Assembly: GCF_000381905.1 (NCBI RefSeq)
Contig: NZ_KB907265.1
Coordinates: forward strand, 1 to 64,000
Source: Paenibacillus fonticola DSM 21315
Lineage (GTDB): Bacteria; Bacillota; Bacilli; Paenibacillales; Paenibacillaceae
DNA length: 64,000 bases
Reading direction: 5' to 3'
Shown here: positions 39,530 through 64,000 of the stretch, one piece after another
Numbering within the stretch: position 1 is the first letter of the stretch
Layout: every line of letters starts with the position of its first letter
The notes under the pieces: generated by a model
What the model was told of the DNA's origin: nothing
The model's database searches: none
The model's input: only the letters and a program-made list of their open reading frames with translations
Translations under genes and position numbers: made by a program

Positions 39530-39664
39530 ATGATTACAAGTACGAATAAGCGCTATTGTGCCTTTCCGTGGGGAGGTGATTTGGATGAGACGCGGACATT
39601 CCAGACTAAGCTGGCAAGACCTTTATTACGACGGCGAAATCGACGACAGATCCGAAATTTTTGA
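39530..39664 (+). CDS. Tiny ORF at the head of the tail-like cluster
   Basis: A 44-codon ORF with a good site (GGGAGGATCATT before ATG). It overlaps the next ORF in another frame, and its basic C-terminal part (RRRNRRQIRNF) is coded by the same bases. It could be a leader peptide for translational coupling to the polymerase gene, or chance. Confidence 0.3.
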   Translation: MITSTNKRYCAFPWGGDLDETRTFQTKLARPLLRRRNRRQIRNF

Positions 39665-39767
39665 TGAAGACATGCAGGAAATCATTATTATTACGGCAGA
39701 GGATCGTTATGCAGCAGGAGGTAATTATATTGGCCAAACCATCAGCTTCTTTAAAATACGTCTTTAA
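39585..39767 (+). CDS. Small acidic protein preceding the RNA polymerase gene
   Basis: A 60-residue ORF with GGGGAGGTGATTTGG before the ATG. After a basic start (MRRGHSRLSWQDLYYD) it is acidic (DDRSEIFDEDMQEIIIITAED). Its end overlaps the start of the polymerase gene by 38 bases, so translation is likely coupled. No family is recognised; a small partner of the polymerase is a guess from position only. Confidence 0.5.
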   Translation: MRRGHSRLSWQDLYYDGEIDDRSEIFDEDMQEIIIITAEDRYAAGGNYIGQTISFFKIRL

Positions 39768-42474
39768 AATTCGTTCCTCCAGGCTCCGGAAAGCCAAGTG
39801 GAATCTTACCCTCTCGATTGATGAAGCAATGAAAAACGAAGAAATCGTAGCATTGGCGGATAGTACCGCGCTGCGGTTTATTTTGGAAATAGAACATAAA
39901 GAAAATCAAGATCCATACATATTGAGCATCAGAGAGCAAATCCATGCTTTAAAAATAGAAGATAACAATCTGGCTAACAAAAACAAGATCAGGTCCTTAT
40001 ATAAAAAATTGTACGAAGCCTCGTTCGTTTCAAGTTACCTAAGCGTCGTTATGGACAACAATCAGGACTATGACCGCTTAAACAGCAAAAAAGGCTTTTA
40101 TATCAATGGCATAAAATATCGAAGATTGCTGGCAACAACAAGCGGAGCAAAGAATAGTACCGTTGTGTTTGTGAATTGTGACATCTACGACGAGCTAATG
40201 AGAAGAATTGATAACGGCAGGAATATGAACAAACCTTTTGTCCCTGCCAGACTTGAAGCTTACAAATCTTTAGTATGCAGTACGAGTACACCCGTGCCCC
40301 ATCCTAATGGAATTCTGGTCGTCAACGATTGCGAAACCTCGTTTTTCAGCAATGTCATTGAAATTGACGATTCGGTCACAAAGAAGTTTCCAAAAATGAG
40401 ATACAAAGAAAATTATGATATCAAACTGAACGAAAGCGATGGTTATGGACTGATCCTCCCTTCCCTTAGCCAAAAATGGGCCAAGCAGCTCGGGGAAAAT
40501 TATATCCCTAGCGGCTTTTGCATTAGAAATGCTTTTGCAAAAGGCATGCTGTTTACGTTCGATTTCCACGCTTTTGCGGAGCAAATAGCTGAAAGCTATA
40601 TCGTAATGGATGTTTGGGGACATGAAAGAGACATCCGTCAGGCTGAAGTTGTTCTGACGGCCTCCATGCTCAAGTTATGGGATTCCTATGATCATCTTGA
40701 GCACTATCTCCATCACTGCCGGCAAAACAACTATACCTTCAGCGTAACCAAAGTGACGCCGGAAACGCTGGAGGATGAACGAAACCTTAATTACCAGTTC
40801 ATTCAGTCCCTGGATCTATCCGACGAGCAAATTCGAACGCTAATTACGCCGACCCTGAATGAAATCAATGATATTTTAGGGCTGGATCCCTACAAGAGCA
40901 TTTTGTTTTTAAACGGCAAAGATATTACAGCAGATACTTTTCATAAGAAAGGCAATGATTTCTCCAAGGCCCTGATGGCTGATCCAAGCATCATTCATGA
41001 TCCGTTCATAAGGAACAAAATTTACGGAATGATCAAGAAAAGAATGAACGACGCCAAGGTCGGCGTAATAAAAGTAGCCGGAAATTTTTCTACCATCTCA
41101 GGCGATCCCTTCAGCCTTTGTCAGAGCATGTTCGGAATGGAGGTTACGGGACTACTCCCAGCGGGCTCCTTCTATTCGGCATACTGGAATGACAGAAACG
41201 TCAGTCAGGTCGCCTGCTTCAGGGCGCCGATGACTTGTGCGGAAAACATAACAATTCTGCAATTGAAAAATACACCGGAAATGAATTACTGGTACAAATA
41301 TATGAATACGGTCACGATTTTCAATTCATGGGACACCACCACCCACGCTCTGAATGGAGCGGACAAGGACGGTGACGCCGTCCTTACTACCAATAACAAG
41401 GTGCTGTTGGACAGCATCGAGAGATTACCTGCTATCGTATGCGTCCAGAAAATCGCCGAGAAAAAGATCGTAACCGAAAAAGACGCGATCCAAGCAAATA
41501 AAAACAGCTTCGGCGACGAAATCGGCAAAGTCACAAACCGGATTACGTCCATGTTCGATGTCCGCGCCAAATTTCCCAAAGACAGCAAAGAATATAAAAC
41601 ATTAACCTACCGCATTCAATGCGGCCAAAATTATCAGCAGAATGCGATCGATAAAACGAAAGGCATCAATAGTAAGGACATGCCCAAAGAGTGGTATGAC
41701 CGCCATGCCGCCGACGCTTCAAAGGATCGGGAGATGAATCTGCGCATCCTCGCCGATAAGAAGCCTTATTTTTTCGGATACATCTATCCCGAGCTGCAAA
41801 AACAATATCGCGGCCATGTTAAAGCCTATGAAATGAACTGTATGGAAAGATTCAGAGTAAGCCTTAGCGAGCTTATGGTGAAAGAGGATCGGACAGACGA
41901 CGAGCAATTATTTTTACAAAATTACTATGACTATATGCCCCTCTCGATCACCGAGTCCGTCATGAACAGATTGTGCCGAATGGTTGAGGACGTATTCGAC
42001 CGCACGAAGGAAACCGCTTCTAATGCAGAATTTGACTACAGCATTTACAAAACAGCGAAGCCCTATTCCAAAAGAACCTATCAGCAATTATCCGAAGTAT
42101 TGGAGAATTATCAGGAAAGCGTTAAAAGCCATGTCCTCTCAGCCAGGAAAGCTAGAATGACGGAAGATGAAGCTCAGTCCGCCAGAATGATGTTCAAGCA
42201 ATCCTTCAAGCAGGAAGTATATGAAAAGTGCAGCAACACAGAAGATGTATGCAATATTCTATTGGATCTATGCTACAGCAAAAATACGACCAAACAAATC
42301 GTTTGGGACATTTGCAGCGATCAGATCCTATGCAATCTGCTCGAGAGAAAAGGTCATACCATCACTTATCCACGTTTGGATCGGTATGGCAGCCTTTCCT
42401 TCGGCGGAAGTTTGTTTTCGCTTGAAACCGTAAATTTAAAAGATTTTGATGATAAGGAGCTAGAACCCGCATGA
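39730..42474 (+). CDS. Single-chain RNA polymerase, beta-prime-like active site (YonO-type)
   Basis: A 914-residue protein. Residues 498-500 form R-A-P (CFRAPMTCAEN) and 545-549 D-K-D-G-D after N-G-A, matching in order and spacing the RAP and NADFDGD boxes of beta-prime subunits, where the three Asp bind catalytic Mg. A GxxSxxSGDP-type stretch (FSTISGDPFSLCQS) lies before them as the likely first barrel. Known single-chain proteins of this kind are YonO of Bacillus phage SPbeta, which transcribes late phage genes, and relatives; length (YonO is about 900 residues) agrees. TTG start behind AGGAGG. It heads the plus-strand tail-like cluster, which it may transcribe. Eukaryotic-type RNA-dependent polymerases share the motif and are the alternative. 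Confidence 0.85.
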   Translation: MAKPSASLKYVFKIRSSRLRKAKWNLTLSIDEAMKNEEIVALADSTALRFILEIEHKENQDPYILSIREQIHALKIEDNNLANKNKIRSLYKKLYEASFVSSYLSVVMDNNQDYDRLNSKKGFYINGIKYRRLLATTSGAKNSTVVFVNCDIYDELMRRIDNGRNMNKPFVPARLEAYKSLVCSTSTPVPHPNGILVVNDCETSFFSNVIEIDDSVTKKFPKMRYKENYDIKLNESDGYGLILPSLSQKWAKQLGENYIPSGFCIRNAFAKGMLFTFDFHAFAEQIAESYIVMDVWGHERDIRQAEVVLTASMLKLWDSYDHLEHYLHHCRQNNYTFSVTKVTPETLEDERNLNYQFIQSLDLSDEQIRTLITPTLNEINDILGLDPYKSILFLNGKDITADTFHKKGNDFSKALMADPSIIHDPFIRNKIYGMIKKRMNDAKVGVIKVAGNFSTISGDPFSLCQSMFGMEVTGLLPAGSFYSAYWNDRNVSQVACFRAPMTCAENITILQLKNTPEMNYWYKYMNTVTIFNSWDTTTHALNGADKDGDAVLTTNNKVLLDSIERLPAIVCVQKIAEKKIVTEKDAIQANKNSFGDEIGKVTNRITSMFDVRAKFPKDSKEYKTLTYRIQCGQNYQQNAIDKTKGINSKDMPKEWYDRHAADASKDREMNLRILADKKPYFFGYIYPELQKQYRGHVKAYEMNCMERFRVSLSELMVKEDRTDDEQLFLQNYYDYMPLSITESVMNRLCRMVEDVFDRTKETASNAEFDYSIYKTAKPYSKRTYQQLSEVLENYQESVKSHVLSARKARMTEDEAQSARMMFKQSFKQEVYEKCSNTEDVCNILLDLCYSKNTTKQIVWDICSDQILCNLLERKGHTITYPRLDRYGSLSFGGSLFSLETVNLKDFDDKELEPA

Positions 42475-43238
42475 AATTGATCATTAACGAAAAAGAGCTG
42501 GTTCAACAGGCGCTGACAGAAGGTTATATTCATCAGAAAACTTCTAAAACGATTACCTGTTTGATTAAACACTACTATTCGCTTGGTATGAATCGGCTGG
42601 AGGTTCGCGAAGAGATTGAATTTTTCATGGAGAACCATTATCCGCATTTCAACAGCGTTAAGTGGCAGGATACTTTGGACCGGTGGGTCAAAACGATTGA
42701 AAAACAACATCATTCGCTTCTAGAAATCACGGAAGTCGTCATAACGAATAAAGAATTGGAACATATCAAGAGTCTGAATAGTCTCGTTCATGAAAAGCTG
42801 ACCTTCGTCTATTTGGTGTACGGCAAAATTTTCAACAAGATGAACGGCAATGACTCCTATTGGGTGAACACGCCGCGAAGCGACATATTCAAAGATGCCA
42901 AGATCACGGCGAATAACGTCAAGCAGGGCCTACTCGTCAATGATCTCATGACGCTCGGCGTTATTGAACCGACCTTGAACACCAAAAAATTGAGCAAAAG
43001 AGTGTTGTTTGCGGAGGATCAGGACACAGCAGGAATCATTGTGCGAGATTTCAGAAATTACATCTATCTCTACTTGGAGTGGCGGGGTGATAAGATCATG
43101 AGCTGCTGCAGCTGCGGCATCCTGCTTCGACAAACCTCCAATCGCAAGAAGTACTGCAGCGAATGCTCCAAGGCAAAACAAAAGGAGTGGCAGCGCAATA
43201 GCATGAAGAAAATAAGGGAACGTGTGTTCGTGAAGTGA
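42471..43238 (+). CDS. Zinc-ribbon protein following the RNA polymerase gene
   Basis: A 255-residue protein. Its ATG overlaps the polymerase stop (ATGA), so the two are coupled. The first 90 residues are helical, the middle has YWVNTPRSDIFKDAKITANNVKQG and may be a winged helix, and the C-terminus has C-x2-C (212, 215) and C-x2-C (229, 232) in a zinc ribbon followed by a basic tail KEWQRNSMKKIRERVFVK. A DNA- or RNA-binding role near the polymerase, for instance promoter recognition, is inference. No named family is recognised. Confidence 0.6.
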   Translation: MKLIINEKELVQQALTEGYIHQKTSKTITCLIKHYYSLGMNRLEVREEIEFFMENHYPHFNSVKWQDTLDRWVKTIEKQHHSLLEITEVVITNKELEHIKSLNSLVHEKLTFVYLVYGKIFNKMNGNDSYWVNTPRSDIFKDAKITANNVKQGLLVNDLMTLGVIEPTLNTKKLSKRVLFAEDQDTAGIIVRDFRNYIYLYLEWRGDKIMSCCSCGILLRQTSNRKKYCSECSKAKQKEWQRNSMKKIRERVFVK

Positions 43239-43362
43239 TGGAAAACTCTCTTAAACGTTGATACATCAGGACTTTAACAGAATCGGGCCAAATTTGTATT
43301 AGTGATAGGAATTGGAATATTCCTTTTAAATAAATATTTAGCTTTTAAGGAGGTGCTTAACT

Positions 43363-43398
43363 ATGAATCAATCGGAAGGGATGGAGCCGCCGAAATGA
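43363..43398 (+). CDS. 11-codon leader ORF before the 43.4-kb gene
   Basis: MNQSEGMEPPK, starting behind a strong AAGGAGG site and ending in an ATGA overlap with the next gene's ATG. The downstream ATG has no ribosome site of its own, so coupling through this leader is the likeliest way to translate it. A single-base error making a fusion is the alternative. Confidence 0.4.
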   Translation: MNQSEGMEPPK

Positions 43399-44120
43399 CC
43401 CTTGAAGAAGACATTCATCTGGCTTTGCTGGCGAATGAACCGGTGTTTGTCACAGATATCGGCCATATTCGCTCACCGAAGCTGAGAGATGTCATTAAGC
43501 TGGGGTACAGCAGCTACATGGACTCCCTGTCGTCTCTATTGTTTGACAAGTCACGGATATCCGGCTTGGGAGAAGTGCCAGAATCGGGATTTGTGCTGGC
43601 GTGTTATTTCTTCATGCAGAACGATCACTTCCGAAATTCGTTTTCCAACGGGATCCAACTTCTATTACAAAAAGAGATCGAGCTTGTAGATGCAGAGGAG
43701 GCTCCCTATTTCAACCTAGGAGATGGGATGACCCTACACGAAGGCAATTTTCAACGTTTCCAGGAAATTGTGAAAATCGCCAACAAAGCTGAATTAGCCG
43801 ACGACAAGGAAAACTACAATCCTGGCAATTCCAAAGCCAAAGAAATGATTGAGAAGCTGATGAAGGGCAAGGCGAACAAGCCTGCCAAGAAACCGGTCAT
43901 GAATTTGCACAGCATCATATCGGGTCTGTCCTGGAAATCGACCAGCGGCATAAACATCCATAATATTTTCGAGCTAAGTATTTATCAGTTCTATGACGGC
44001 TATTACCGGCTTGAAAATATCGATCATTACAACAGCGTCGTCACTGGCATTTATACCGGCAATATCGATGCAAAAAAGATTAATATGCAAGAAATCAATT
44101 GGACAAAAATCATTTATTAG
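43395..44120 (+). CDS. Uncharacterised protein of the tail-like cluster
   Basis: A 241-residue protein. The N-terminal half is LEEDIHLALLANEPVFVTDIG... with a helical core, then a Lys-rich linker (about 150-170), then a C-terminal block with SIISGLSWKSTSGINIHNIFELSIYQFYDGYYRLENID that looks like the end of tail-assembly proteins found before tube genes. That comparison is from memory and weak. The gene ends 13 bases before the probable tube gene. Confidence 0.5.
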   Translation: MTLEEDIHLALLANEPVFVTDIGHIRSPKLRDVIKLGYSSYMDSLSSLLFDKSRISGLGEVPESGFVLACYFFMQNDHFRNSFSNGIQLLLQKEIELVDAEEAPYFNLGDGMTLHEGNFQRFQEIVKIANKAELADDKENYNPGNSKAKEMIEKLMKGKANKPAKKPVMNLHSIISGLSWKSTSGINIHNIFELSIYQFYDGYYRLENIDHYNSVVTGIYTGNIDAKKINMQEINWTKIIY

Positions 44121-44133
44121 GAGGAATTTTTTT

Positions 44134-44928
44134 ATGGCAGTTACAAATAGATGGGCAGTACGGGACGTTGCAACAGCATCATTTTTCGATATCGAAACAG
44201 GGAAGTTGAAGCTTAAAATCGACACACTGAAAATGTCTAACATTGAGAACACCGCTGAAACGGTATATGCCGTAGGCGGCAGCGGCAATCCTAAATTGGT
44301 TGGCTTCTCGGGTGGCCGTTCTGCAAGGTTCGTACTGCAGGATGCCCTGTTCTCCAACGAAATGCTGGGCATGCTGCTTGGCAACGAGGTCACTTCCAGT
44401 GCGAAGAATGTCATTAAAAATGAAGTATGCGTAGTGAATGGAGATGCCGCTACACTTACATATACGCCGGCTAGCAGCGGAGCACTGGTTAGCGTGAACC
44501 TGCTCTATGCGGACGGAACGGTAGGCAAAGCCTTTGAATATGTCGCCTCAGCACCAGCATCGAACAGCTATACCGTAAGCGGCAAGACGGTTTCCTTCGC
44601 AAGCGGCGAAATTCCAGATCAAAGCAAAATCATCGTTTACTACGAAACAGCGGCAAGCCCGGATACGAAGGAAATCCGCGCATCCTCCGATAAATTCGCA
44701 GGCAGCTTCAAGCTTGTACTCGACGTTCTGGTGCGCGACTACCATCTTCAAAAGGACTATGCAGCTCAAATTACGGTTGATAATGCAAAGATCGAGGATA
44801 ACTGGAACCTCAATATGCAGCCAGATGGAGAACCTTCTCCACTTGATATTCCGATGGAGGCATTGAAGCCAGCCGACTCCCACGATCTGTACGTGATGCG
44901 GATTTACGATGAGGAAGATTTGGCATAA
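44134..44928 (+). CDS. Probable major tail tube protein
   Basis: A 264-residue, beta-rich protein without cysteine-rich or enzymatic motifs. MAVTNRWAVRDVATASFFDI, a middle Ig-like part (YTPASSGALVSVNLLYADG) and a C-terminal ending DIPMEALKPADSHDLYVMRIYDEE fit the style of tail tube proteins from Bacillus phages, in which the tube gene precedes chaperones and tape measure, as here. It has an excellent GGAGG site. No sheath gene stands before it, which favours a non-contractile tail. Confidence 0.6.
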   Translation: MAVTNRWAVRDVATASFFDIETGKLKLKIDTLKMSNIENTAETVYAVGGSGNPKLVGFSGGRSARFVLQDALFSNEMLGMLLGNEVTSSAKNVIKNEVCVVNGDAATLTYTPASSGALVSVNLLYADGTVGKAFEYVASAPASNSYTVSGKTVSFASGEIPDQSKIIVYYETAASPDTKEIRASSDKFAGSFKLVLDVLVRDYHLQKDYAAQITVDNAKIEDNWNLNMQPDGEPSPLDIPMEALKPADSHDLYVMRIYDEEDLA

Positions 44929-45087
44929 GGACTCAGGGGGGGCTTCCCCCTCCTCCCTCCTTTCTTCTCATCTCAAAGCTAGTGAATGCGTCCTTTGCTC
45001 ATTTTCAGATGAAAAGAAAACAGCTCATCACATTATTTTAATAGCAATGACTGCTTAAGCAGAATATGAACCTAGGAGATGATTTAT

Positions 45088-45756
45088 ATGGCGTCGACTG
45101 CGACTAAAGCGTCTACAACGGCCAAAACAACCGCAGCAACTAGAACAATCGAGGCGGCTAATAGCACCAATCCAAGCACCAATACAAGCAAAGCAATCAA
45201 AACTGCAGCTAGCAGCAAGAAATCCACCAAATCGAAAAAAGTAAAAAATACGAAGCTAACGTTAGATAACTTGGTTCAAGATGCAGATAAGTACGAAAAG
45301 CTGCATCGGGTCAGCTTTGAAGATGGCCGTTATACAGAGGTATATACCTGCTTCAGGCCAACGCGGATCGATGAAATGCTCGTTAATTTCTCTGAATTCA
45401 TCACCGAGTATAATCGCAGATTTTCCGAGCTGAAAGAGAACAAATTAATGGATTATTTAAGCCTGCATATTCTGCTATTCTTCTCTACCTTAACGGAGCG
45501 GACCGATTATTCCTTTGATGAAAAAGTCGATATTTTCACTAAAATGCTGGACAGCGAGCTGGCCGAGACCATTTTTGAGCATTTTGACAAGACAGAAATC
45601 CAAAAAATCTACTCACGTATCTGGAAGAAATTCAGCATGTACGAGGAAATGGTCCAGGACAATATAGAGCTACAAAGCGGACTGCTGGATTACATCGATA
45701 ATGCGAATTTAGAAAATACAGACGTCATCAAAAACGTTCTGATCCAAAACAACTAA
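45088..45756 (+). CDS. Tail assembly chaperone-like protein, first of two
   Basis: A 222-residue protein with an unusual N-terminal 70 residues of Ala, Thr, Ser, Asn and Lys, then an acidic helical domain with VYTCFRPTRIDEMLVNFSEFI. Its position between the tube gene and the tape measure, and the following short partner, match tail assembly chaperones, which coat the tape measure during assembly. The ATG at 45088 is behind AGGAGATG. The A/T/K-rich head may be an expanded low-complexity segment. Confidence 0.5.
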   Translation: MASTATKASTTAKTTAATRTIEAANSTNPSTNTSKAIKTAASSKKSTKSKKVKNTKLTLDNLVQDADKYEKLHRVSFEDGRYTEVYTCFRPTRIDEMLVNFSEFITEYNRRFSELKENKLMDYLSLHILLFFSTLTERTDYSFDEKVDIFTKMLDSELAETIFEHFDKTEIQKIYSRIWKKFSMYEEMVQDNIELQSGLLDYIDNANLENTDVIKNVLIQNN

Positions 45757-45777
45757 ATGCCAAAGGAGCGAATCGTT

Positions 45778-46206
45778 TTGAAGTTTTTTATTCATGAACT
45801 GGAATATGTCATCTCTTTTCTGTACCGTCTGAAATTGCTGGATTTTAGCTCTCGTATGAGAACCCGCTTTATTAAAATTTTGGCGGAGCGCTTTCAGCAA
45901 TATAAGGAAGAATATTTGGACCTCGTGATGGAGCACTGTGTATTGGATGGCGATGGTCAGCCGGAAATTATTACGGAGGGTGAGGTCCAGCGTTACAACA
46001 TCAAAGATCTTCAAGCGTTCCAAACGTCCCTTGCCCCCTTGCTGAATGAGGAATTCGTCGTTGGGATTACGGACAACAACCGAAACATGCTGAAGAGCGT
46101 TGCCTACTCCGTGCTGCATTGCGGTCTGGAATTCGCAGGCGACGATCAGTTCAAATACGATGCATTAGCGGCAAAATTTGAAGAACTGAATCTGGACGAA
46201 TTTTAA
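45778..46206 (+). CDS. Tail assembly chaperone-like protein, second of two
   Basis: A 142-residue acidic helical protein. The TTG at 45778 (eight bases after AAAGGAG) is preferred to the ATG at 45757, which overlaps the ribosome site. The pairing with the previous gene just before the tape measure is the usual place for the second chaperone. No frameshift site linking the two is seen, so they would be made separately. Confidence 0.45.
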   Translation: MKFFIHELEYVISFLYRLKLLDFSSRMRTRFIKILAERFQQYKEEYLDLVMEHCVLDGDGQPEIITEGEVQRYNIKDLQAFQTSLAPLLNEEFVVGITDNNRNMLKSVAYSVLHCGLEFAGDDQFKYDALAAKFEELNLDEF

Positions 46207-46221: not shown

Positions 46222-46247
46222 AATGGCCATCGGTTGGTCATTTTTTT
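46222..46247 (+). terminator. Intrinsic terminator just before the tape measure gene
   Basis: AATGGCCA-TCGGT-TGGTCATT with seven following T. It ends only about 20 nt before the tape measure ATG, and the intervening bases are the ribosome site, so a promoter cannot fit between. Confidence 0.78.
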
Positions 46248-46266
46248 ATTTAAAGGAGTGAGAACC

Positions 46267-49200
46267 ATGGCAAATGATACGAAGATTTTAATTACAGCCG
46301 ATATCAACATAAGTCCGTCAATCACCGCGCTGAACAAAGCTATAAAAAATATCGAAAAAAACCCTTCTTTGAAGAAAATCAAAATCAGTATTGAAATTGA
46401 TAGACAAGAAAGCGATAAGGTCGGCAGCAGCTTCGGCCAAGCACTAAAGTCTGTTTACAAACAATCGCAAACTTTCATTAAAAATAACAAGGCTCTCTTG
46501 AAGCAAGGCATGCAGGATATTATTGGCACGATACTCGAGGTCGACACGCAAATTACGCAGCTCAAACGCGTGATGAATGAAGGAACAGATTTCGAGAATA
46601 TGCTGCGCGGAAGCATTCAAACGGCGAATGAGCTGGGACATTCCATTAGTGAAGTAAACAGCCTGATGATCGATATTGGCCGCATGGGTTATAACGAGGA
46701 GCAAACTGTGGCGCTCTCCAAGACGGCCGCCCTGTTTCAAAACATCTCGGAGTTAACGCCGGATCAAACCATCCAGACTATGACGGCCGCGATGTCCGCG
46801 TTCAATATTGAAGCGGAGGACAGCATTCTAATTGCCGACAGGCTGAATGCCGTGGACAATAAATTCTCCGTGACAAGCCAGGATTTAGCCAGCAGCTTAA
46901 CCCAGGCCGGTACTGCGGCCAGTAACTATGGAATTTCCATGGAAAAGCTGATCGGTGATACGACAGCCATTTCCATAGCTACGCGTGAGAGTGGTGAAGT
47001 GATCGGTAAACTCGTTGCCGCCTGATCAAGTGATTGATCAGTGAAAATCTCGACTAATGGACTTGGAACTCCTATTTTCAAAAATAGGACAACAAGGGGC
47101 AAGTTTAAATACAGCCTGAACGACTAAATGTCGAGACATCTTCCCTTCTTTAACTTTAAGAATGTAGAAGATGATGCGATAGTCTGAACACACTAGCAAT
47201 AGTGTGAGAAGCGGTCGAGTGTAAAGACACTCCTGGAAGCACCGTTTCCGCTGCACTTCTACTGGATTTACGATTGGTGCAGTCCGTAGGACGCCATAAG
47301 TCCGAAAGTAACAGCCTGAACTCACTAACCACGATTTACTCGCGCCTGACAACTCTCGGCGAATCTGAACAGGTACTGAACAGCATCGGCATTTCCATGA
47401 AAGACATGCACGGCAACGTGAAAAACGGAGCTGATGTTCTGGACGAAGTGGCCGGCAAATGGAGTAATCTAAGCAAGGAGCAGCAGTATAATACCGCACT
47501 GCAGTTGGCCGGACAGTCCCAGCTCTCCCGGTTCATCTCCCTTATGGAGAACTATGACACCAGCACAAGAGCAAGCGAAGCCGCCCTCAACTCTCAGGGT
47601 TCTGCCATGCAGGAAAATGCCGATTACATGAACTCCCTCGAAGCCAGAATCCAAACGATGAAAAACGCCTGGGACACGCTCGCCTTATCGATGGGAAATG
47701 CCGTGATCAACGACTCCATCATTGGCGTAACGAGTGTATTAACGGGTTTGATGAAGGTGCTAACACTTAGTGTTGATAAACTTGGTTTGCTTCCTACTCT
47801 GCTGGGGATCGTCGGTACTTCGGCTGCCACTGTGAGTAAAAACTTTAGAACAACTACGATTGCCGTTTTAACGCTTGGTAAAGGCATGACATCGCTTGGA
47901 GTATCTGCAACAACCGCAAAAATAGCCATAAGAGGCTTATTGGCAAGCACAGGAGTAGGACTAGCTCTGGCAGCTCTTGGTTTTGTAATTGAAAAGGTCA
48001 TTAATTTATTTGGGAATGCGGGAGAATCTCAAGAAGAGTATTTTGACTCTTTGAAGCAAAATATTGAAGATACTGAAAGTAAGATTAATACTCTGGATGA
48101 ATTAAGTATCAAGCTGAAAGATAATACACTTTCACATGAAGAACAACTAGCAACATATGGCGAGCTAGCTAAAATTTCTTCTAAAGTTATAAGCCACTAT
48201 ACAGCAGAAGGAGAAGCAGTTTATAAAAATAAAGAACAAATAGATCAATTACTTAAAATTGAAAAGGAAAGACTTGTATTAAAAAAGAAAATTGCTGCAG
48301 AAGAAGCACTTGACTCTCTTGAAAAATCGTTACCTGACATTAGTAAAAAGAAAAAGGAAATCACTGGATTAACAGAAGAATGGAAAAAAGCATCAGCTAG
48401 TCAAGATATAGCTTTATACGCAAAATCATTTATTGAAGACAATAATATGGTCGAACTTAAAGAGTCTTCTAACAATTCCTTTAGTGATGCATATAATTAT
48501 GACAAATTATTAGGACAATTAAATAAAGAAGTAAAGCAAAAGCTGAAAGATAATAATATCGCTTCCGATTATTTCATTTATAAAAAGACCAACCTAAAGT
48601 ATTTTAACTTAGATGAATTGATAAATAGTTCTGAACGGTTTGAAATTATCACAGATAATATTGCAAGTAAAATTGAGAATAAACAAGATGAGTTAGATGA
48701 TACGATAAATAATTACAAAGAGGTCTTTCAATCTCTAGGAGAAGTAACGGTTGCTAGTGTTGACGTAAATGATAAGAATCTTGATGTATTTCTATATAGT
48801 TTGGCGGACTCTTTCATCAAAACCTCAACCATTACAGAAGATAATGCACAGAAAATAAAAATAGATTATAAAAATTTGATTCAAGACATTGCCAGAGATG
48901 CCAGAGATAACAAGATTAATCTTGCAGCCGCATTAGACACAGGTGATTTTGACGATTTAATAACAATGTATCCAAAACATGCTCAAGCCTTTAAACATAT
49001 GGCGAATTCTATCAAAGAGTCTAAAGAAGCTACTAATCCGGATTCCAACTTGCTTCCTGTATATGATGCTTTAGGTAAAAAAATCGGAGAAATCTCTGGA
49101 GTAGCTGATAAAGCGGCTGATAATTTCTATAACTTGAAAGCGAAACTTGACGATAATGGCGCTGTCATTGGTTTCACTGGATCATTAAGAAATTTAAGCG

Positions 49201-51827: not shown

Positions 51828-51834
51828 TATGCTG

Positions 51835-51875: not shown

Positions 51876-51897
51876 CGATTTAGGAGGTATTATCCAC

Positions 51898-55407: not shown

Positions 55408-55875
55408 ATGCCTGGAGTGGCTGTACATGGATCAGAAATATATGAAGTTAGAAAACCTGGTTATGTAACCTATGAGATTTGGACTGAGATACCTGTAGAT
55501 TCTGATGAATATGGTAACCCTATTTATAGATGGACGCCGACAGGATCTGGAAGTAGAAATGCTAAGATAACCGGCTATATAGTTGCATCTTCCAAGATGA
55601 AAGTCGGCGGAGCTAATGTCGCTGTGGTAGGAGATAAGACAATTGAGACTTGGGTGGCTGATCCTCCTGTGCCATCCAGTGACAGCAGTACTCAAATTAG
55701 AAACATACAACCACCTGGAGGACAGGGGAGTGGCGAAGGTGAAATCATCTCTGGCAGTACCAAGGCTAAACTAGACGGTAAGCCCATCGCCTTAATCGGT
55801 TCAACCGTAAGAACCTGTTTAGGGACTACAACTACTATCAAAACAGGCAGCGATAAATTGAAATTCAGCAGCTAA
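55408..55875 (+). CDS. PAAR-like protein
   Basis: A 155-residue protein. Two similar halves (SSKMKVGGANVAVVGDKT and GSTKAKLDGKPIALIGSTV) resemble the repeat seen in PAAR proteins, which form the sharp tip of type VI secretion spikes and contractile tails. A central Gly/Ser/Pro linker joins them. ATG behind GGGAGG. A tip protein in a tail without a sheath would be unusual. The match rests on the G-x-x-x-A-x-x-G-D pattern rather than on structure. Confidence 0.55.
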   Translation: MPGVAVHGSEIYEVRKPGYVTYEIWTEIPVDSDEYGNPIYRWTPTGSGSRNAKITGYIVASSKMKVGGANVAVVGDKTIETWVADPPVPSSDSSTQIRNIQPPGGQGSGEGEIISGSTKAKLDGKPIALIGSTVRTCLGTTTTIKTGSDKLKFSS

Positions 55876-55927
55876 AAATAAAAAATTCAATTACTAATCT
55901 TTCCAGCCAGGAAAGGAGGTGTTCAAA

Positions 55928-57200: not shown

Positions 57201-57210
57201 GTGATGAAAA

Positions 57211-57846
57211 ATGGCTAGATGGATATCTCTTTTAAATCTACAAGGCATATACACCTCCCCTTCCATATTAATTCCGCTGCAAGCAGATGGAGCGCTTAGC
57301 AAGGTTTCTTGGGAAAGCAGTACTCCTGAGGGCAGCCAAATCGTAGTACAGACCCGGCTAAGTTTTGACGGATACAATTGGACAGAGTGGCGAGCTTGCA
57401 CGAACGGTGGACAAATCCCTGAAATTGACGAAGACACACCCTTATATGAAACATACCTTATGTATCGAGTCATCATGAAATCTAACTCTTATAGTGTTAA
57501 ACCTAATTTTAAAAAGATCACTTTTTTCTTCGAGCCTGTGCTTGTTTTTGACAATAAAGGCGATTTAAACTGTAAGCCAGAAATCTGGATTACGAAATCA
57601 GGAAATGGTGATTTTAGCATTCAAAATATTACTCACAACAATGAAGAATTTGCGTTCACTAATCTGCTTGATGGGGAAACGGTCTATATAGACAATGAAA
57701 ACCAAGACATTGAAACCACGCTGGCAGTTACTTATAGATACAAAGATTTCAACGATAACTACTTAAACTTTCCTCCTGGGAAAAATGTACTTCGAGTAAG
57801 CGGTAATGCTGACATCAAGTTCAGATACCAATTTACATTGCTATGA
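57211..57846 (+). CDS. Tail protein with Dit C-terminal-type domain
   Basis: A 211-residue protein. Residues about 115-211 (NKGDLNCKPEIWITKSGNGDFSI...NLLDGETVYIDNENQDI...NYLNFPPGKNVLRVSGNADIKFRYQ) correspond to the second domain of SPP1-type Dit proteins. The N-terminal part is different (LLNLQGIYTSPSILIPLQADGALS). Coded two genes after the Dit N-terminal domain. The two may have been one gene once, or the domain is reused here as an adaptor for fibres. Confidence 0.6.
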   Translation: MARWISLLNLQGIYTSPSILIPLQADGALSKVSWESSTPEGSQIVVQTRLSFDGYNWTEWRACTNGGQIPEIDEDTPLYETYLMYRVIMKSNSYSVKPNFKKITFFFEPVLVFDNKGDLNCKPEIWITKSGNGDFSIQNITHNNEEFAFTNLLDGETVYIDNENQDIETTLAVTYRYKDFNDNYLNFPPGKNVLRVSGNADIKFRYQFTLL

Positions 57847-57865
57847 TAAGAGAGGAGGTGGAATA

Positions 57866-59020
57866 TTGCCAGATTTAATAACTCAACTGCAATACAATGA
57901 CCCATTAACAATCATTTTTAGAAAAGGAACGGACGATGATCCCCTTAAAGATCGGGCAGATACGCTACCTGTTGTGAACGGCATTATCACGCTTTTTGAA
58001 ATTCCATCACTTCGTGATCGCGTACAGATTTCAGGAATGGTTGAAATTGATCAAGAAATTTATGAGCGTAGAAAAGAACTAAAGGAAAATGAATTTCTTG
58101 TCCATTATTCGATCGGGATCGTACAATTTCACCCTAAGCATGAGGGAACAACTCTTCTATGCAGATACAAGGGTCGTGGATTAATCATGTACCCGGCCTC
58201 GCGCATTTATGCCATGGTCAGAAGAAATCCAGATGTGGTTATTACACTCCAAAACTACATAGAAGAGATAGAAATAAAAATCAAAGAAAACACCTCGCTA
58301 ATTAAACGTGTTGAGGACTTAATTTCCGAAACAAGGGTTATCATCGAGGAGTCCGAGAAGGCTACAGATAATGCCAATCGAGCAGCCCAAGAAGCTGATG
58401 CTGCAAGAGACTTGGCTTTAGATGCCTATGAGACAACAAGACTTGTCTGGAAAGAGCCTGTTGACAGAGAGCAGGATATTTACACCACCTACCCCCACCC
58501 TTCCGTTGGCTGGGTCGTTCAGACCACAAGAGACGGCAAGCGGTATAGGTTTGACGGAAACCACTGGATATTGATAGATATCTTTGGATCAAATCTTCAG
58601 GTTGTGAATGAGCACAGAGATGGCCTAATGTCTGTTGGGGAACATTTGAAGTTAAAGTCATTTCCAGTTGAACTCAAGGATCGAGTCCTTATCTTCTGTT
58701 TAGCGGATATGGCTCAAGGAATTCAAGATCTGCCATTCACCCCCTTCCCCTTCAAAGGAGAAATTGTAGCGGTGGATGGTTTTTGTATTACTGCTGGAGA
58801 AACGAGGAGCGAACTATCAATTGAAAAGTCGCGAGACTTGGCGAATTGGACAGAAATCACCTCCAGGCGAATGCGATTCGAGCCGAATTCCCATATGGAT
58901 GATAAAGGAATAGTGCTAACCAGCAATACAGTTGAACCTGGGGACTTTTTTCGAATAAACGTAACCCATCTTGGACTTGGCATCAGCAACGCTACGGTTA
59001 CCGTGCGCATTAAAATTTAA
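57866..59020 (+). CDS. Coiled-coil tail fibre or baseplate protein
   Basis: A 384-residue protein. The N-terminal 130 residues are a beta-rich baseplate-like domain, then a coiled coil at about residues 130-190 (EIEIKIKENTSLIKRVEDLISETR) implies trimer formation, then a hinge (YTTYPHPSVGWVVQTTRDGKRYRFDG) and a C-terminal beta domain. TTG start at 57866 behind AGAGGAGG, near the stop of the gene before. This layout is common in tail fibre adaptors of Bacillus phages. Confidence 0.6.
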   Translation: MPDLITQLQYNDPLTIIFRKGTDDDPLKDRADTLPVVNGIITLFEIPSLRDRVQISGMVEIDQEIYERRKELKENEFLVHYSIGIVQFHPKHEGTTLLCRYKGRGLIMYPASRIYAMVRRNPDVVITLQNYIEEIEIKIKENTSLIKRVEDLISETRVIIEESEKATDNANRAAQEADAARDLALDAYETTRLVWKEPVDREQDIYTTYPHPSVGWVVQTTRDGKRYRFDGNHWILIDIFGSNLQVVNEHRDGLMSVGEHLKLKSFPVELKDRVLIFCLADMAQGIQDLPFTPFPFKGEIVAVDGFCITAGETRSELSIEKSRDLANWTEITSRRMRFEPNSHMDDKGIVLTSNTVEPGDFFRINVTHLGLGISNATVTVRIKI

Positions 59021-59039
59021 ATATAAGGAGAAATGTAAA

Positions 59040-59582
59040 ATGTCTCAACCTGTCATTACATGGATGAACGCAACTCACACTCAACAAATAACAGCTCCTC
59101 ATAACTATGGAGTAATTGATGCAGGGGACTGGTCTCCTGTCCATACATTCAACATCTGGAATAACAGAGGTGGAACGACTGATGTGTCCAAAATGGAAGA
59201 CTGCACCATTACAACTAGGGATATGTCAGGTGGGCTTGGCAACACAGTAGGAAATGAGATTGAAGTAGTAAAAAACAATTGGTTTCATGCCCAAGTTGAT
59301 TCTTTAGATGAAGCAGATATCAATGAAGAGTCTAGCCGCATTGGCAAAGATTATTCAAAGCCGATTGGCACTAAAGGTTCTACTACAAAAGATAATACAG
59401 GTGCAAGCTATCCTACTCCCCTTGTTCCAGGAGCCAAAGAGATACTGGGCGTCAGAAACAATGGAAACCCTACAGATGCCGCAGGAAACTATGTAACAAT
59501 TAGTTTTCGGGCTGAAGTCCCGCTCGATGCAAAAAGTGGGCAGCAACAATTTAAAAAAAGAATTTCATATCGTTACGTTTAA
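59040..59582 (+). CDS. Uncharacterised structural protein of the tail cluster
   Basis: A 180-residue beta-rich protein with MSQPVITWMNATHTQQITAP at its N-terminus and a glycine-rich, threonine-rich middle. It begins at an ATG behind AAGGAGAA. It lies among fibre genes and has no recognised catalytic motif. The lengths and style fit small receptor-binding or baseplate proteins, but no family was recognised. Confidence 0.5.
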   Translation: MSQPVITWMNATHTQQITAPHNYGVIDAGDWSPVHTFNIWNNRGGTTDVSKMEDCTITTRDMSGGLGNTVGNEIEVVKNNWFHAQVDSLDEADINEESSRIGKDYSKPIGTKGSTTKDNTGASYPTPLVPGAKEILGVRNNGNPTDAAGNYVTISFRAEVPLDAKSGQQQFKKRISYRYV

Positions 59583-59601
59583 TTAGGTTCATGTTATTTG
59601 A

Positions 59602-59630
59602 AGAGGCAGAAATTATTTCTGTCTCTTTTT
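59602..59630 (+). terminator. Terminator within the fibre genes
   Basis: AGAGGCAGAAA-TTA-TTTCTGTCTCT followed by six T, 20 nt past the previous stop codon. Confidence 0.82.
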
Positions 59631-59673
59631 TATTTTACAACACAACTCACAATACAATGGGAGGTACGCTCTA

Positions 59674-60288
59674 ATGATTTTTGGCAATGGCCATTTTGCA
59701 AAATCTCCAGTCCAGTCTCAAAAGTATATCTGGCTGGCAGAATATTATGACGGTACTTTTTTAACAGAATATGATCTTGAAAATCGAAAAACAAATAGTT
59801 TTTATGATATAGACAAAAATAAACTCATTAGGTTTGGGTTAATCGGTTGCGGCAACCAAATATATTTTGATGTAGCTAATGGTATTTTTAATATCAACCA
59901 TGACCGAATTATGATCTCATATGTCACCAAAGACACAGAGTATCCCTTGACGGGTAGGACGCTTCTTTACAATGATATTATCCAATTTAAAGAGGCTACC
60001 GCAGAGGCAAACCTGCTAACTAAGGGAAAATCCGAGGGAAGAATGCATAGCAGCATAGTAACGCACGCTATTGGCTATAAGAAAGCAATGGATTTGGCAG
60101 GTGTGAATATCCACTTTCAAACGATACTGCATCTTCCGCTCGATCAACCTGCATATGTACAAATTAAAATTTCTTCTAGTCAAGATTTGAATGGGAAATT
60201 AATAGTTCGTATGAATGGACTAGTTGCGAGTGAAATTGAAGCGCCGCTTAAAGCTAATATGGCTGGCATTATAAACTGGACTCCTTAA
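59674..60288 (+). CDS. Uncharacterised fibre-region protein
   Basis: A 204-residue protein with MIFGNGHFAKSPVQSQKYIWLAEYYDG at the start and no cysteine clusters, membrane segment or enzyme motif. It follows a terminator by 44 nt; GGGAGG precedes the ATG. AT-rich in codon use like the fibre genes after it. Not recognised. Confidence 0.5.
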   Translation: MIFGNGHFAKSPVQSQKYIWLAEYYDGTFLTEYDLENRKTNSFYDIDKNKLIRFGLIGCGNQIYFDVANGIFNINHDRIMISYVTKDTEYPLTGRTLLYNDIIQFKEATAEANLLTKGKSEGRMHSSIVTHAIGYKKAMDLAGVNIHFQTILHLPLDQPAYVQIKISSSQDLNGKLIVRMNGLVASEIEAPLKANMAGIINWTP

Positions 60289-60313
60289 AAAAATTAGAAA
60301 GGAACGTGCATAA

Positions 60314-60667
60314 ATGCAAGATTATTTTTACGTTGATCCATACAACAGAGTTTGGGGCAACAAAGATATTGGTGGAGATATGACGGTCACCTCCTCAAAC
60401 AACACTCTGAATATCGAATCCAGCAGCAACATTTATACAGTGACCATTCCACCAGGTACTTATCATACCGAGTATACGCTGAACAAATCTGAGCTTGTTG
60501 AAGCGATTGCTGAAGAGTTTGAGCATAACCAGCTTCCTGTTGAAGTGTATCTTGGCGGTAATCATAAAGATGTTAAGTATAATTCCATCGTTTTTCGTTT
60601 GTCAGATGGTTCCGAGATTCAAGATATTAACGGCACGTTTTTTGAAGCGTTTTTTGATTCCATTTAA
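60314..60667 (+). CDS. Small uncharacterised fibre-region protein
   Basis: A 117-residue beta-rich protein (MQDYFYVDPYNRVWGNKDIGG...). A region with TYHTEYTLNKSELVEAIAEEFE resembles small linker domains of tail fibre bases. AAAGGAACG precedes the ATG. No family was recognised. Confidence 0.45.
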   Translation: MQDYFYVDPYNRVWGNKDIGGDMTVTSSNNTLNIESSSNIYTVTIPPGTYHTEYTLNKSELVEAIAEEFEHNQLPVEVYLGGNHKDVKYNSIVFRLSDGSEIQDINGTFFEAFFDSI

Positions 60668-60681
60668 AAGCAGGTGTAAAT

Positions 60682-61257
60682 ATGGCTGTGACACATGAAG
60701 TTGGACTACCTCTTGATTTAAGTAAGGGTACTTTTGCTGATACGGAATATACAGATGGTTTTCTACAATTAAAAGTTATGAAAGTTTCGGATATAGGTAA
60801 TGCCATCTATGCAGAATCTGGCTACTGGGAGTCTGAGATTATTGATATAAAAGACAAGATTACAGCATTCAAAAGAATTAGTAAGACATCTCAATTAGTA
60901 AATGGTGCAACTTATAAGATCTTCACCTCTTCCTCTGAGGACAGAGCTGTGTGGAGCGCTTGGGAAGAAATAGACTATGCCGATGGCACAATCAAGAGTC
61001 CTAAAAATAGCTATGCCAAAGTCAGAATAGAAATTAAATCCACAATGTCAGATGAGATTGTAACGGTTGATGACTTCACGGTTGTAGGAAAGTATAGCAA
61101 TGAGTTCGTGAATAGTGATAAGGGTGTCTTGGAGTTAAAGAGGGTTTATGAATATGAGATGAACAATGAACTCGGACAAGAAAATATTCATAGAAAATTA
61201 ATTGAAAGAAATAAATTTAATAAAATTAATAGTATTCATATAAATTCTGATCAGTAA
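60682..61257 (+). CDS. Uncharacterised fibre-region protein
   Basis: A 191-residue protein. The middle YKIFTSSSEDRAVWSAWEEIDYADGTIKSP recalls a carbohydrate-binding or discoidin-like beta-sandwich that also occurs in the 57211 gene (DGYNWTEWRAC). It ends 15 nt before the GLUG gene. Likely a spacer or receptor-contact domain. Confidence 0.45.
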   Translation: MAVTHEVGLPLDLSKGTFADTEYTDGFLQLKVMKVSDIGNAIYAESGYWESEIIDIKDKITAFKRISKTSQLVNGATYKIFTSSSEDRAVWSAWEEIDYADGTIKSPKNSYAKVRIEIKSTMSDEIVTVDDFTVVGKYSNEFVNSDKGVLELKRVYEYEMNNELGQENIHRKLIERNKFNKINSIHINSDQ

Positions 61258-61271
61258 AGGAGGCGAATTAT

Positions 61272-62861
61272 TTGGCAAATGGTAACTTTGCGGGCGGTAC
61301 TGGAACAATTGATGATCCCTATCTGATTGAGGATGCTCATGATTTTAATAGAATTTATTCTGGATTGAGCAGTCATTATAAATTGGTATATGATATTGAC
61401 TTTTCGATTGTGGGTTTTAATCGCCCTGATGCTGGGGTTTTTACTGGTTCGCTTGATGGGGATGGGCACACAATTTCAAATTACTCTTTTGGAACTTTGG
61501 GAGTTACAGGTAATGCCGGATTGTTTCGCGGTATTAATGGAGCAACAATAAAAAATATGAACATTGAAAATGCCCGTATCGCTAGTGCAGCCTCATCTGC
61601 TGTACTAGCTGGTGCAGCTGTCGGAGAAAACAACACAATACAAAATGTTCATATTATTAATTCTAGGATAGAGTCTACATCGAACGGCATTGCAGGTTTT
61701 TGTGGGCAGGCAGGGGGAGCGGTAAAATTATTAGACTGTTCATTTCAGGGGGAGATTGTAAGAAACTCTGGTACTAGTGATAGTGGTTATGTAGGTGGTC
61801 TTATTGGAGATTTATTTGGAAACGTGACTATTAAAAAATGCAAAACAAACCTCACTATATCCACCTCAAACTGCTCTAATTGCGGAGGACTAGTTGGGAG
61901 AATAAGGGGTTTAACTCAGAGAATAATCATTGAAAATTGTCATTCGCAATTTACCATAATCAATTCAGGATCGGGCAGTAGTTATGGTGGGTTAATTGGG
62001 TATTCTGATAATGTAGACATATCAGAATCATCAGCTATTGGAGTTATCTCCGCCCCTACATCCACTGGTCAAATGTATGGAGGCTTGATTGGGTATCTGA
62101 CAAATACAAATGCTAGCTCTTGCTACTCTAATGTAAAAATTGAAGCACCCAATACTTTCAACAGTGGCGGTGTGTTCGGATCAGTCTATGGTGGAAATAT
62201 AATAAATAACTGCTATGGACATGGTAGTATTATAGGGAACCTTAGAATTGGAGGCTTGTCAGGGTATACAGTAGGCAATAGCAGTTTACCCTCAACCATA
62301 AAAAACTCGTACTCCACTGTATCTGTGATTGTCACAACCACTACCAATCAGAAGGCTGCTTTTGCTTCCAACGTAGATTTTAGATACGTAACTTTTTCAA
62401 ATAACTATTGTGACATTGAGGCAACAGCAGGAAGTGGTAGTTTATATGCAATCTCAGGTACTACTGCTTACACCGGTGGGATTGAAGGCAAAACAACATT
62501 GGAAATGAAAACTCCCTCCACCTTTAGTGCATGGGATACAGATGTGTGGAAATTTATTGAGGGACAATATCCTAAGCTATTCTTCGAACCAATAAATACA
62601 TCATTCCTTTATAATAAAGGAAATTACAAAAAATGGAATAATGATCATTGGCAAACAATTTCGACAACACTGCCAACAGAACCAATTTTCAAAGATGAGG
62701 GAATGTATAGCTTATCAGCCCTAGATCGAAAACAAACTACAATCACAATTCCAATGGATGACAACACTCCACAAGGACAGCCTTTAGGCAATGGTAGAGT
62801 ATTTAAAGAAAAGATCAATCTTAAGAAATACATGGAAATCAATAGTATTAATGTGAAGTAG
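61272..62861 (+). CDS. GLUG-repeat adhesin-like tail fibre
   Basis: A 529-residue protein. After ANGNFAGGTGTIDDPYLIEDAHDF, repeats with GGLIGD-, GGLVGR-, GGLIGY- and GGVFGS-type cores spaced by about 35 residues form a GLUG beta-helix, seen in adhesins. The C-terminal 100 residues (YNKGNYKKWNNDHWQTIS) form a separate domain. TTG start behind AAAGGAGG. Strongly AT-rich. Such a fibre is the likely determinant of host or target range. Confidence 0.7.
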   Translation: MANGNFAGGTGTIDDPYLIEDAHDFNRIYSGLSSHYKLVYDIDFSIVGFNRPDAGVFTGSLDGDGHTISNYSFGTLGVTGNAGLFRGINGATIKNMNIENARIASAASSAVLAGAAVGENNTIQNVHIINSRIESTSNGIAGFCGQAGGAVKLLDCSFQGEIVRNSGTSDSGYVGGLIGDLFGNVTIKKCKTNLTISTSNCSNCGGLVGRIRGLTQRIIIENCHSQFTIINSGSGSSYGGLIGYSDNVDISESSAIGVISAPTSTGQMYGGLIGYLTNTNASSCYSNVKIEAPNTFNSGGVFGSVYGGNIINNCYGHGSIIGNLRIGGLSGYTVGNSSLPSTIKNSYSTVSVIVTTTTNQKAAFASNVDFRYVTFSNNYCDIEATAGSGSLYAISGTTAYTGGIEGKTTLEMKTPSTFSAWDTDVWKFIEGQYPKLFFEPINTSFLYNKGNYKKWNNDHWQTISTTLPTEPIFKDEGMYSLSALDRKQTTITIPMDDNTPQGQPLGNGRVFKEKINLKKYMEINSINVK

Positions 62862-62888
62862 TTGATCAAATTCAGCTACTTCTTTTTT
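62855..62888 (+). terminator. Terminator overlapping the end of the GLUG gene
   Basis: GAAGTAG pairs with CTACTTC around a 14-nt loop, followed by six T. The stop codon lies inside the stem. Confidence 0.75.
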
Positions 62889-63057
62889 GTGTTTAAAATA
62901 CCAATTTTAAAAGATGGGACAGAATATTAGATTCAGATTCTCCTCCGAGATCAGGAAAAACATTTGAGCATACAGTTGATTAAAGTAAGCTAAGGACAGA
63001 TAAGATTGTTTGGGAGTAGAAAGGTGAACTTTATATAGGAAGGGGAGATAGTAACAC

Positions 63058-64000
63058 ATGGAGAGCATTAATGTTACATTGAATCCTAATGATATGGGAT
63101 CAGGAATTACGCTAAGTAATGGTAATTTAACTGTAACTACTGCATCAAACAATAATAGTATCCGTGCTACACATGGCAAAATACTTGGTAAGTGGTATTG
63201 GGAAGTTAAACTAAGTAATGGAGTAGATTCTACTATAGGAATTTCAAATAAATCATTTTCTATGATTTCTTCAGAAATTAATACCAGCAATAATTGGAGA
63301 GTATATAATGTAGCAGGTGGTAGGAAGTTTCCTGAAAATACGACATACGGAACGCCTTCTACAGTAGGCAATACCATCGGTGTGGCTCTCGATCTAGATA
63401 ATGGAACTTTAGAGTTTTATAAAAATGGAATTAGTATGGGAATAAGTCATGCCAATGTGAAGGAATTAGGTGAAGTTTATCCAACGTTGCGTTTCTATTC
63501 GAATACTAGTCAAACGATGAATATAAACTTTGGTGCGACTTCATTTACCTATAATATTCCTCATGGTTTTATGCCATATGCTATGTATCCTTCGCATAAA
63601 ATCTTACTTTCATCAAATGAGAGTAAGATTAAGGGAATCAAAAAAGGAGCTATAGATGATTCAAATGCCATTCCACCGATGACTTCTAATATCGCTCCGA
63701 GCGGTGTGGCAAGCGCAAGCTCAATCTATAGTTCAACTTATGATGTTTGGAAAGCATTTGACATAGATGACACAGGCACTTCGTATTGGAGGTCTGCAAA
63801 TAACACAGTCTACCCGGTTTATTTGGAATACGAATTCCCGACCCCAATTAGGATCGGAAGATACGGGCTAATAGGTGTGACGAGTGTACTCCCTAAAGAA
63901 TGGACATTTGAAGGTTCCAATGATGGGGTAAGTTGGGTCATCCTAGATGAACGAACAGTCACATTAACTGCCTTAGTATTAACAACATTTGATTTAGTTA
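63058..64000 (+). CDS. SPRY plus discoidin (F5/8 type C) domain fibre protein, cut by window edge
   Basis: The ORF starts at ATG 63058 behind AAGGGGAG and stays open to the edge (314 codons). Residues about 30-165 form a SPRY domain (GKWYWEVKLSNG, VGIS-type TIGISNKSF, GVALDLDNGTLEFYKNG). Residues about 215-310 are a discoidin-like domain (YDVWKAFDIDDTGTSYWRS and EWTFEGSNDGVSW). Both are protein or sugar recognition modules, so this is another receptor-binding protein. Confidence 0.7.
   Translation, partial: MESINVTLNPNDMGSGITLSNGNLTVTTASNNNSIRATHGKILGKWYWEVKLSNGVDSTIGISNKSFSMISSEINTSNNWRVYNVAGGRKFPENTTYGTPSTVGNTIGVALDLDNGTLEFYKNGISMGISHANVKELGEVYPTLRFYSNTSQTMNINFGATSFTYNIPHGFMPYAMYPSHKILLSSNESKIKGIKKGAIDDSNAIPPMTSNIAPSGVASASSIYSSTYDVWKAFDIDDTGTSYWRSANNTVYPVYLEYEFPTPIRIGRYGLIGVTSVLPKEWTFEGSNDGVSWVILDERTVTLTALVLTTFDLV

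Follow-up and report, generated by a model that had tools for sequence, protein, structure and literature searches.

Why should a phage-type RNA polymerase stand at the head of a gene cluster that encodes a tail and no recognisable head? The question is raised by a stretch of 64,000 bases from Paenibacillus fonticola DSM 21315 (hereafter the window), with which contig C21 (116,865 bases) in the 6.3-Mb genome of this Paenibacillus-type bacterium begins. The polymerase is a single-chain enzyme of the YonO type. According to the available part of PMC5467207, YonO transcribes the structural and lysis genes of SPbeta; the same text speculates that YonO-like enzymes encoded in chromosomes act on certain sets of host genes, and draws no link from them to headless tails. 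The original prediction, made from the letters of the window, described a plus-strand cluster running straight from the polymerase to tail genes, with no terminase, portal, capsid or integrase gene in view, and proposed either a tailocin or a stripped prophage with its own polymerase. We consider it likely that the island is a domesticated, headless, long non-contractile F-type tailocin-like system that has kept its ancestor's late-gene polymerase as both switch and engine.

Gene order of the island

The polymerase gene (39730..42474, plus strand) starts with a TTG codon at 39730, preceded by GGAGG, and encodes 914 residues. Both double-psi barrels lie in this one chain, as judged by a fold match (VIA-align), and the aspartates of the DxDxD metal-binding motif (D545, D547 and D549) are invariant in 27 sequences. 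The closest phage polymerases, at 37–38% identity, are those of Enterocloster phage PMBT24 and its relatives. The polymerase of another carrier, the culturable Paenibacillus bouchesdurhonensis, is 89% identical. The gene for gp2 (42471..43238, plus strand) overlaps the polymerase gene by four bases and encodes a four-cysteine ribbon protein (C212, C215, C229 and C232). A similar ribbon forms the end of the polymerase itself in another polymerase lineage, and gp2 is proposed as a candidate polymerase partner.

Family matches confirmed the predicted run of genes on the plus strand: gp3 (43353..44120; phrog_4051, the family of the gene recognised just 5′ of the tube gene in BUCT082), the tail tube protein (44104..44928; phrog_2729), two small genes forming a pair, gp5 (45079..45756; phrog_7383) and gp6 (45757..46206; phrog_1401), a tape measure (46234..51827), a YomG-like tail hub of 1168 residues (51829..55335), a PAAR-motif tip protein (55408..55875; PF05488, 33.9 bits against a 27-bit cut-off), a Dit-like distal tail protein (55919..56548), and about a dozen tip and fibre genes with GLUG, SPRY, F5/8C and CBM96 domains (56562..64000 and on to contig position 69483). 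gp5 stands in the place of a tail-assembly chaperone, a candidate function by position only. As had been suspected, the right edge of the window cuts the cluster. Its last gene is a holin (contig 69467–70012), followed by tlp (~70142) and then by opposite-strand genes of the host, which from their translations read as a solute-binding protein, ppiB, lysA, spoVA, sigF and dacF. Tube, tape measure, hub and fibres without a sheath make up the gene set of an F-type tailocin, the type to which monocin belongs. No sheath family was matched among the cluster proteins in family scans, and the mark of an R-type tailocin or contractile injection system was not found.

Search for head genes

From the polymerase to the host genes on both sides, no family match to a terminase, portal, major capsid or integrase was obtained, and the island does not have the gene set of a complete SPbeta-like prophage. 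The absence foreseen for the window holds for the whole cluster; head genes past the window edge, which would have pointed to a normal prophage, were looked for as far as the host genes and none was matched. PMBT24 (OQ326496) resembles the island in having the polymerase followed by gp2 and a tube of the same family, and differs in the head module that sits between gp2 and tube. PMBT24 and BUCT082 run from the polymerase through gp2, HU, terminase, portal and other head genes to the tube, whereas in the window only gp2 and gp3, adjoining directly, lie between polymerase and tube. Supply of a head from elsewhere in the genome was also considered and rejected: no YonO-phage-type terminase was found in the window genome or in the other carriers of the same genus (seven in total), using a terminase profile of ten rows that detects only relatives of those rows and missed the unrelated terminase of one phage described below (G053).

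Chromosomal address, selection and fibre exchange

We searched for ppiB and ribD in 39 genomes of the genus and took the interval between them from the listed coordinates where both lay on one contig (36 of 39). The interval is at most 6.1 kb in 29 of the 36 genomes and larger in seven, of which four hold the island (G000, G004, G009 and G014) and three hold other genes (G005, G011 and G012). The island is present at ribD–ppiB in seven species (G000, G036, G009, G004, G014, G034 and G046, the last being Paenibacillus sp. J5C2022), and a polymerase match was obtained in 7 of 40 genomes of the genus. Polymerases of two lineages, 21–25% identical, head orthologous tail cassettes at this address. 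A 55-kb insert of different content occupies the site in G005 (G005:C2:28587-83999). The site may be an insertion hot spot.

The ratio of nonsynonymous to synonymous substitution rates (dN/dS), computed against three close relatives, is 0.10–0.12 for the polymerase, 0.09–0.13 for gp2, 0.08–0.14 for gp3, 0.04–0.05 for the tube, 0.06–0.09 for the hub and 0.03–0.08 for the holin. By these estimates (0.03–0.14) the core genes are under purifying selection. Reading frames are open in four species, with dN/dS of 0.04–0.14 at dS of 0.20–0.57 from polymerase to hub. Three fibre genes are only 29–40% identical to those of G036 and G009, yet 72–96% identical to those of G004. Because identity drops to 29–40% between a conserved hub (94–97%) and a conserved holin (92–96%), we conclude from this comparison that the receptor-binding part has been swapped.

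Two genomes without the island, G037 and G035, keep the region up to the polymerase start at 95–97% identity to G036. They were first candidates for ancestral empty sites, but the retained promoter region identifies them as deletion scars, and the island is therefore older than these species. The empty site of G008 has no retained promoter region.

These observations bear on the 'stripped remnant' form of the original prediction, that is, a decaying SPbeta-like prophage without present function whose genes for head and integration have been lost. Decay could account for the lack of a recognised integrase or separate endolysin, for G037 and G035, which keep only the region upstream of the polymerase, and for eight species of one genus that retain only polymerase, gp2 and fibre genes, two of them with a damaged polymerase (see below). 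We nevertheless regard it as rather unlikely, because intact genes occur at one address in seven species, core dN/dS is low with frames open in four species, fibres have been exchanged between conserved flanks, and the spacing of a LexA-type promoter is kept in the seven islands. The tailocin-like side of the prediction is thereby favoured.

Control region

A LexA-type box, GAACATATGTTT, lies at 39146..39157 on the plus strand, in the same place in all seven ribD-site islands. A putative sigma-A promoter (39155..39184, plus strand) begins at the end of the box, with a −35-like TTTGCT and, after 18 bp, a −10-like TAGTAT. In 7/7 of these islands the end of the box doubles as a −35-like hexamer, placed 18 bp ahead of a −10-like element, and three of the seven combine this same spacing with the other polymerase lineage. 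Upstream of the host lexA gene (TIGR00498), at 58–186 bp, there are four matches of the LexA-type box kind. A palindrome, TTACC-N5-GGTAA (39184..39198), stands beside the −10 element, with a looser copy at 39363–39377. Exact or near copies occur in G036, G009 and G014, imperfect ones in G004 and G034, and none in G046. This palindrome is a possible second operator. Its identification with the MrpR element of SPbeta found no support: no TTACC-N5-GGTAA is present in the SPBc2 and BUCT082 stretches searched.

An MrpR-like repressor gave no match in the window genome. Such a gene lies beside the polymerase in G014 and G044 and on another contig in G043. In G014 (L082:12057-14364) MrpR (YopR)-like and YopQ-like genes are divergent beside the polymerase, as is the MrpR-like gene of G044 (G044:C1:316755-317738); G014 combines LexA box and MrpR, and G044 has MrpR only. 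The original prediction had called for a look at lysis and regulatory genes: a holin and a LexA-type box are present, and a separate endolysin and an MrpR-like repressor were not recognised.

A second LexA-type box is found at the end of gp2 (43218..43229, plus strand) in five of the six ribD-site islands compared. As a general feature ahead of gp3 it was rejected, being present in only 4 of 40 loci, with controls reaching 2 of 40. The gp2–gp3 spacer that follows (43239..43352, plus strand) has 98 of 114 columns invariant in four species, as against 523 of 891 polymerase third codon positions; this unusually conserved block is a candidate for the island polymerase's own promoter.

The island is probably switched on by DNA damage. 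Once damage had inactivated LexA, host RNA polymerase would start at the LexA-box promoter (~39.15 kb) and transcribe the genes for the island polymerase and gp2. The single-chain enzyme, probably together with gp2, would in turn transcribe the ~27-kb operon from tail to holin, most likely starting at the conserved block 3′ of gp2. Tails would assemble, the holin would open the membrane, and the released tails would act on related bacteria, with targets set by the exchangeable fibres. A tail made for something other than killing kin (an injection device, an anti-eukaryote device or a phage decoy) seems to us improbable; the PAAR tip, the domains of the fibre proteins and the fibre-only derivatives of eight species could suit such a role, but no toxin or cargo family turned up in the scans, and non-contractile tail genes with a holin fit a tailocin released by lysis.

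Survey of related loci

In a first survey, one scan of genome contigs yielded 102 confirmed relatives, and 80 loci were kept and sorted with iterated profiles for gp3, tube, terminase, portal and capsid. In the first sorting, gp3 or tube followed the polymerase at 282–3188 bp in 43 loci, none of which matched a terminase, portal or capsid; a terminase or portal was present in 19, neither group of genes was seen over at least 8 kb in 11, and 7 were too short. Wider regions were read for nine tail-only genomes, by inspection of open reading frames and with the profiles. No head genes were found up to host or unrelated genes in G041–G044, G046, G057 and G058, nor within 39 kb in G050. Ten proteins of G058 compared with PHROGs matched endolysin, Dit, hub, fibre, transposase-like and integrase families, and no head family. 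The ninth genome (G053/L188, Bacillus xiamenensis) turned out to be a phage with unrelated head genes and was reassigned as head-bearing. The final count is 42 tail-only loci, 31 of them judged over the stored flank alone (1.5 to 10 kb downstream), 20 head-bearing loci (62 informative in all) and 18 uninformative ones. The tube gene of G053 (L218) precedes its unrelated genes for terminase, portal and capsid, which is an unusual arrangement for a YonO-type phage. In two headless clusters of Lachnospiraceae, L217 (G057) and L221 (G050), a cysteine-desulfurase-like gene lies directly 3′ of the tube gene, recognised as Pfam Aminotran_5 (E 1.9e-47) in G057 and by reading in G050. Region L293 (G033) contains no polymerase.

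The terminase profile matched nothing in 28 of 30 candidate genomes, a figure that includes G053 with its unrelated terminase, and recovered both positive controls. Matches were obtained in G040 and G041, at other polymerase loci, and count in favour of a helper-dependent element, which would provide another phage with tails or receive heads from it. In such a pairing, a partner with heads only could be complemented by a tail-only cassette that has its own polymerase. We hold this reading to be very improbable, as packaging and integration genes were not matched, the seven same-genus carriers have no YonO-phage-type terminase, and the island keeps a fixed address and is lost by deletion.

For a second set, 394 genomes of the family were surveyed, 64 of which gave a match; 38 stretches were taken from 35 genomes, and the loci of 34 were analysed. 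The polymerase was found in 37 of the 38 stretches, with 10 loci tail-only, 14 head-bearing (two of which repeat the first set) and 13 neither. On a tree of 85 rows covering both sets, made by a quick method and with long branches flagged, 13 changes between head-bearing and tail-only are needed, at least 10 of them on well-supported branches. These changes would represent either repeated head loss or repeated polymerase exchange.

LexA-type boxes were counted within 700 bp upstream of the polymerase. In the first set, after one tail-only locus with too little upstream sequence and one head-bearing locus are left out, the box is present in 30/41 tail-only and 0/19 head-bearing loci, where six control patterns reached at most 2/41 and 3/19 (Fisher p 5e-8, not corrected for kinship). 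When kinship is corrected for on the tree of both sets, 10 independent pairs are obtained, in which the box goes with tail-only in 5.9 on average and the reverse is seen in 0 (median p 0.03). In the second set it occurs in two tail-only loci and in none of the head-bearing or neither loci. In many Lachnospiraceae loci, read by eye, the first LexA box may serve the divergent gene, because it lies inside the spacer of a promoter-like pair facing that gene. In G058 (L214:2061-3833) the divergent gene beside the polymerase has weak sigma-70 and GmrSD_N matches, with a LexA-type box in the shared upstream region.

Eight of the 13 neither loci (L260, L264, L265, L267, L268, L269, L272 and L276) belong to eight species of one genus, in which fibre genes come straight after polymerase and gp2, and gp3, tube, tape measure and hub are gone. 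The polymerase is full length in six of the eight, has its C-terminus out of frame in G107 and is broken in G157; its dN/dS in the first seven loci is 0.06–0.12. The loss of tail genes may be recent or may have spread by recombination, because the fibre-only loci are mixed among full-length relatives at the same address (the G104 and G142 polymerases are 98% identical). Of the remaining five loci, those of G366, G381, G094 and G255 resemble other phages when read, and that of G404 is a tail cluster in which neither gp3 nor tube was recognised.

Other features of the window and of related islands

The tape-measure gene consists of two exons (46234–47007 and 47319–51827; spliced product ~1749 residues) separated by a group I intron (47008..47318, plus strand; Rfam RF00028, 45.6 bits, E 1.9e-10, gathering score 50). 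The intron is common to four species (302–311 nt), with exons ending in GGT and beginning with AAC, and the frame fits. At 0.15 nm per residue, the spliced product would set a tail length of ~260 nm. In two other Paenibacillus, G043 and G042, the polymerase gene itself is split within the codons of the catalytic DxDGD motif or right next to them: in G043 the interruption is a group I intron (46.8 bits, L208:6259-6521), and in G042 it is an insert (L206 ~6571–7002) that Rfam does not recognise. The PAAR protein of this non-contractile tail cluster was matched in 9 of 10 related Paenibacillus islands (the exception is G043; G033 was not read that far). A small open reading frame of 60 residues (39585..39767, plus strand) is kept upstream of the polymerase in four species and overlaps its start. 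On the left flank, a host gene of 93 residues with no assigned function (38338..38619, minus strand) is also present at the island-free sites of G037, G035 and G008. A T-box leader (19378–19608) and a flavin mononucleotide (FMN) riboswitch (38017–38191) are ordinary host elements.

Discussion

In the reading of the island as a headless tailocin-like system with its own polymerase, the sequence shows the anatomy, the lack of head-gene matches, the shared address, selection, fibre exchange, the LexA-type boxes and the polymerase fold. That LexA binds the box, that promoters and polymerase work as proposed, and that particles form, are released and kill, we infer. Several points weigh against the reading. 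The proposed promoter is weak by consensus, with a weak −35, and a consensus scan did not list it. Across the host genome the box pattern shows no enrichment, with 24 sites where the reversed control has 42. In the second set, the 2/10 tail-only loci with a box equal the best of six control patterns (2/10), so that the SOS link was not replicated outside the first set and does not hold generally; boxes characterise the ribD-site islands and many first-set loci, and none was found in any head-bearing locus examined. No separate endolysin was recognised in family scans, and the endolysin-labelled phrog_669 matches the tape measure. L188 hid unrelated terminase, portal and capsid genes behind the tube, and other distant loci could do so too. 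PAAR and Dit evolve faster than the core (dN/dS 0.10–0.31). Finally, the tube family phrog_2729 is filed under head and packaging, the gene at 56562–57200 (plus strand) matches phrog_20658 ('head decoration'), and PHROGs families named 'minor head protein' match the hub more weakly. We read the tube and 56562 genes as tail genes, because the annotated 'major tail protein' of PMBT24 is a member of the tube family and the gene at 56562 sits between Dit and fibres in the window and in most related islands.

The island shares with SPbeta a single-chain two-barrel polymerase and a late operon with YomG hub and tape measure; SPbeta responds to mitomycin C, as the island is predicted to do. SPbeta differs in being a complete phage, and in having, in the available text of PMC10516654, an MrpR site at yonP, the gene ahead of yonO, where the island has a LexA-type box. 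Monocin (PMC6872733) and rhizoviticin (PMC10811719) are likewise headless tail clusters; both are SOS-linked, as the island may be, and monocin is vertically kept. They differ in their control by CI- or LexA-family repressors, and the parts of these reports available describe no polymerase of their own, although rhizoviticin also has a sigma factor gene. The R-type tailocins of clostridia (PMC10538166) and Brevibacillus (PMC9406221) are phage-tail particles of spore-forming Bacillota, as the product of the island would be, and differ in being contractile; in their accessible text, the one mention of polymerase and sigma genes is within a general listing of regulators in PMC10538166. Searches of the open-access literature, as far as its text was available, yielded nothing joining a YonO-like polymerase to a headless tail cluster.

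Similar clusters in other bacteria suggest a domesticated, polymerase-driven tail weapon. Tailocins are generally regarded as relying on the polymerase of the host, with regulators of phage or pyocin type; a headless tail operon switched by a private polymerase, single-chain and two-barrel, would be a different control design. It would give a concrete role to chromosomal YonO-like genes, on which their discoverers, in the available text, only speculated (PMC5467207). As a small and probably inducible system, the island would also lend itself to the discovery of YonO-type promoters and to working out what the ribbon protein gp2 does, and it would add a set of Gram-positive tail clusters whose fibres have been exchanged in nature. 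More broadly, the evidence is evenly poised on whether the chromosomal YonO-type polymerases of Bacillota are mostly dedicated to headless tails, a class that would have arisen repeatedly from YonO-phages, or swapped polymerases with them, would be partly under LexA control, could change its polymerase while keeping tail genes and address, and would shed a fibre-only form that retains the polymerase. If true, this would explain what 'orphan' single-chain polymerases are for.

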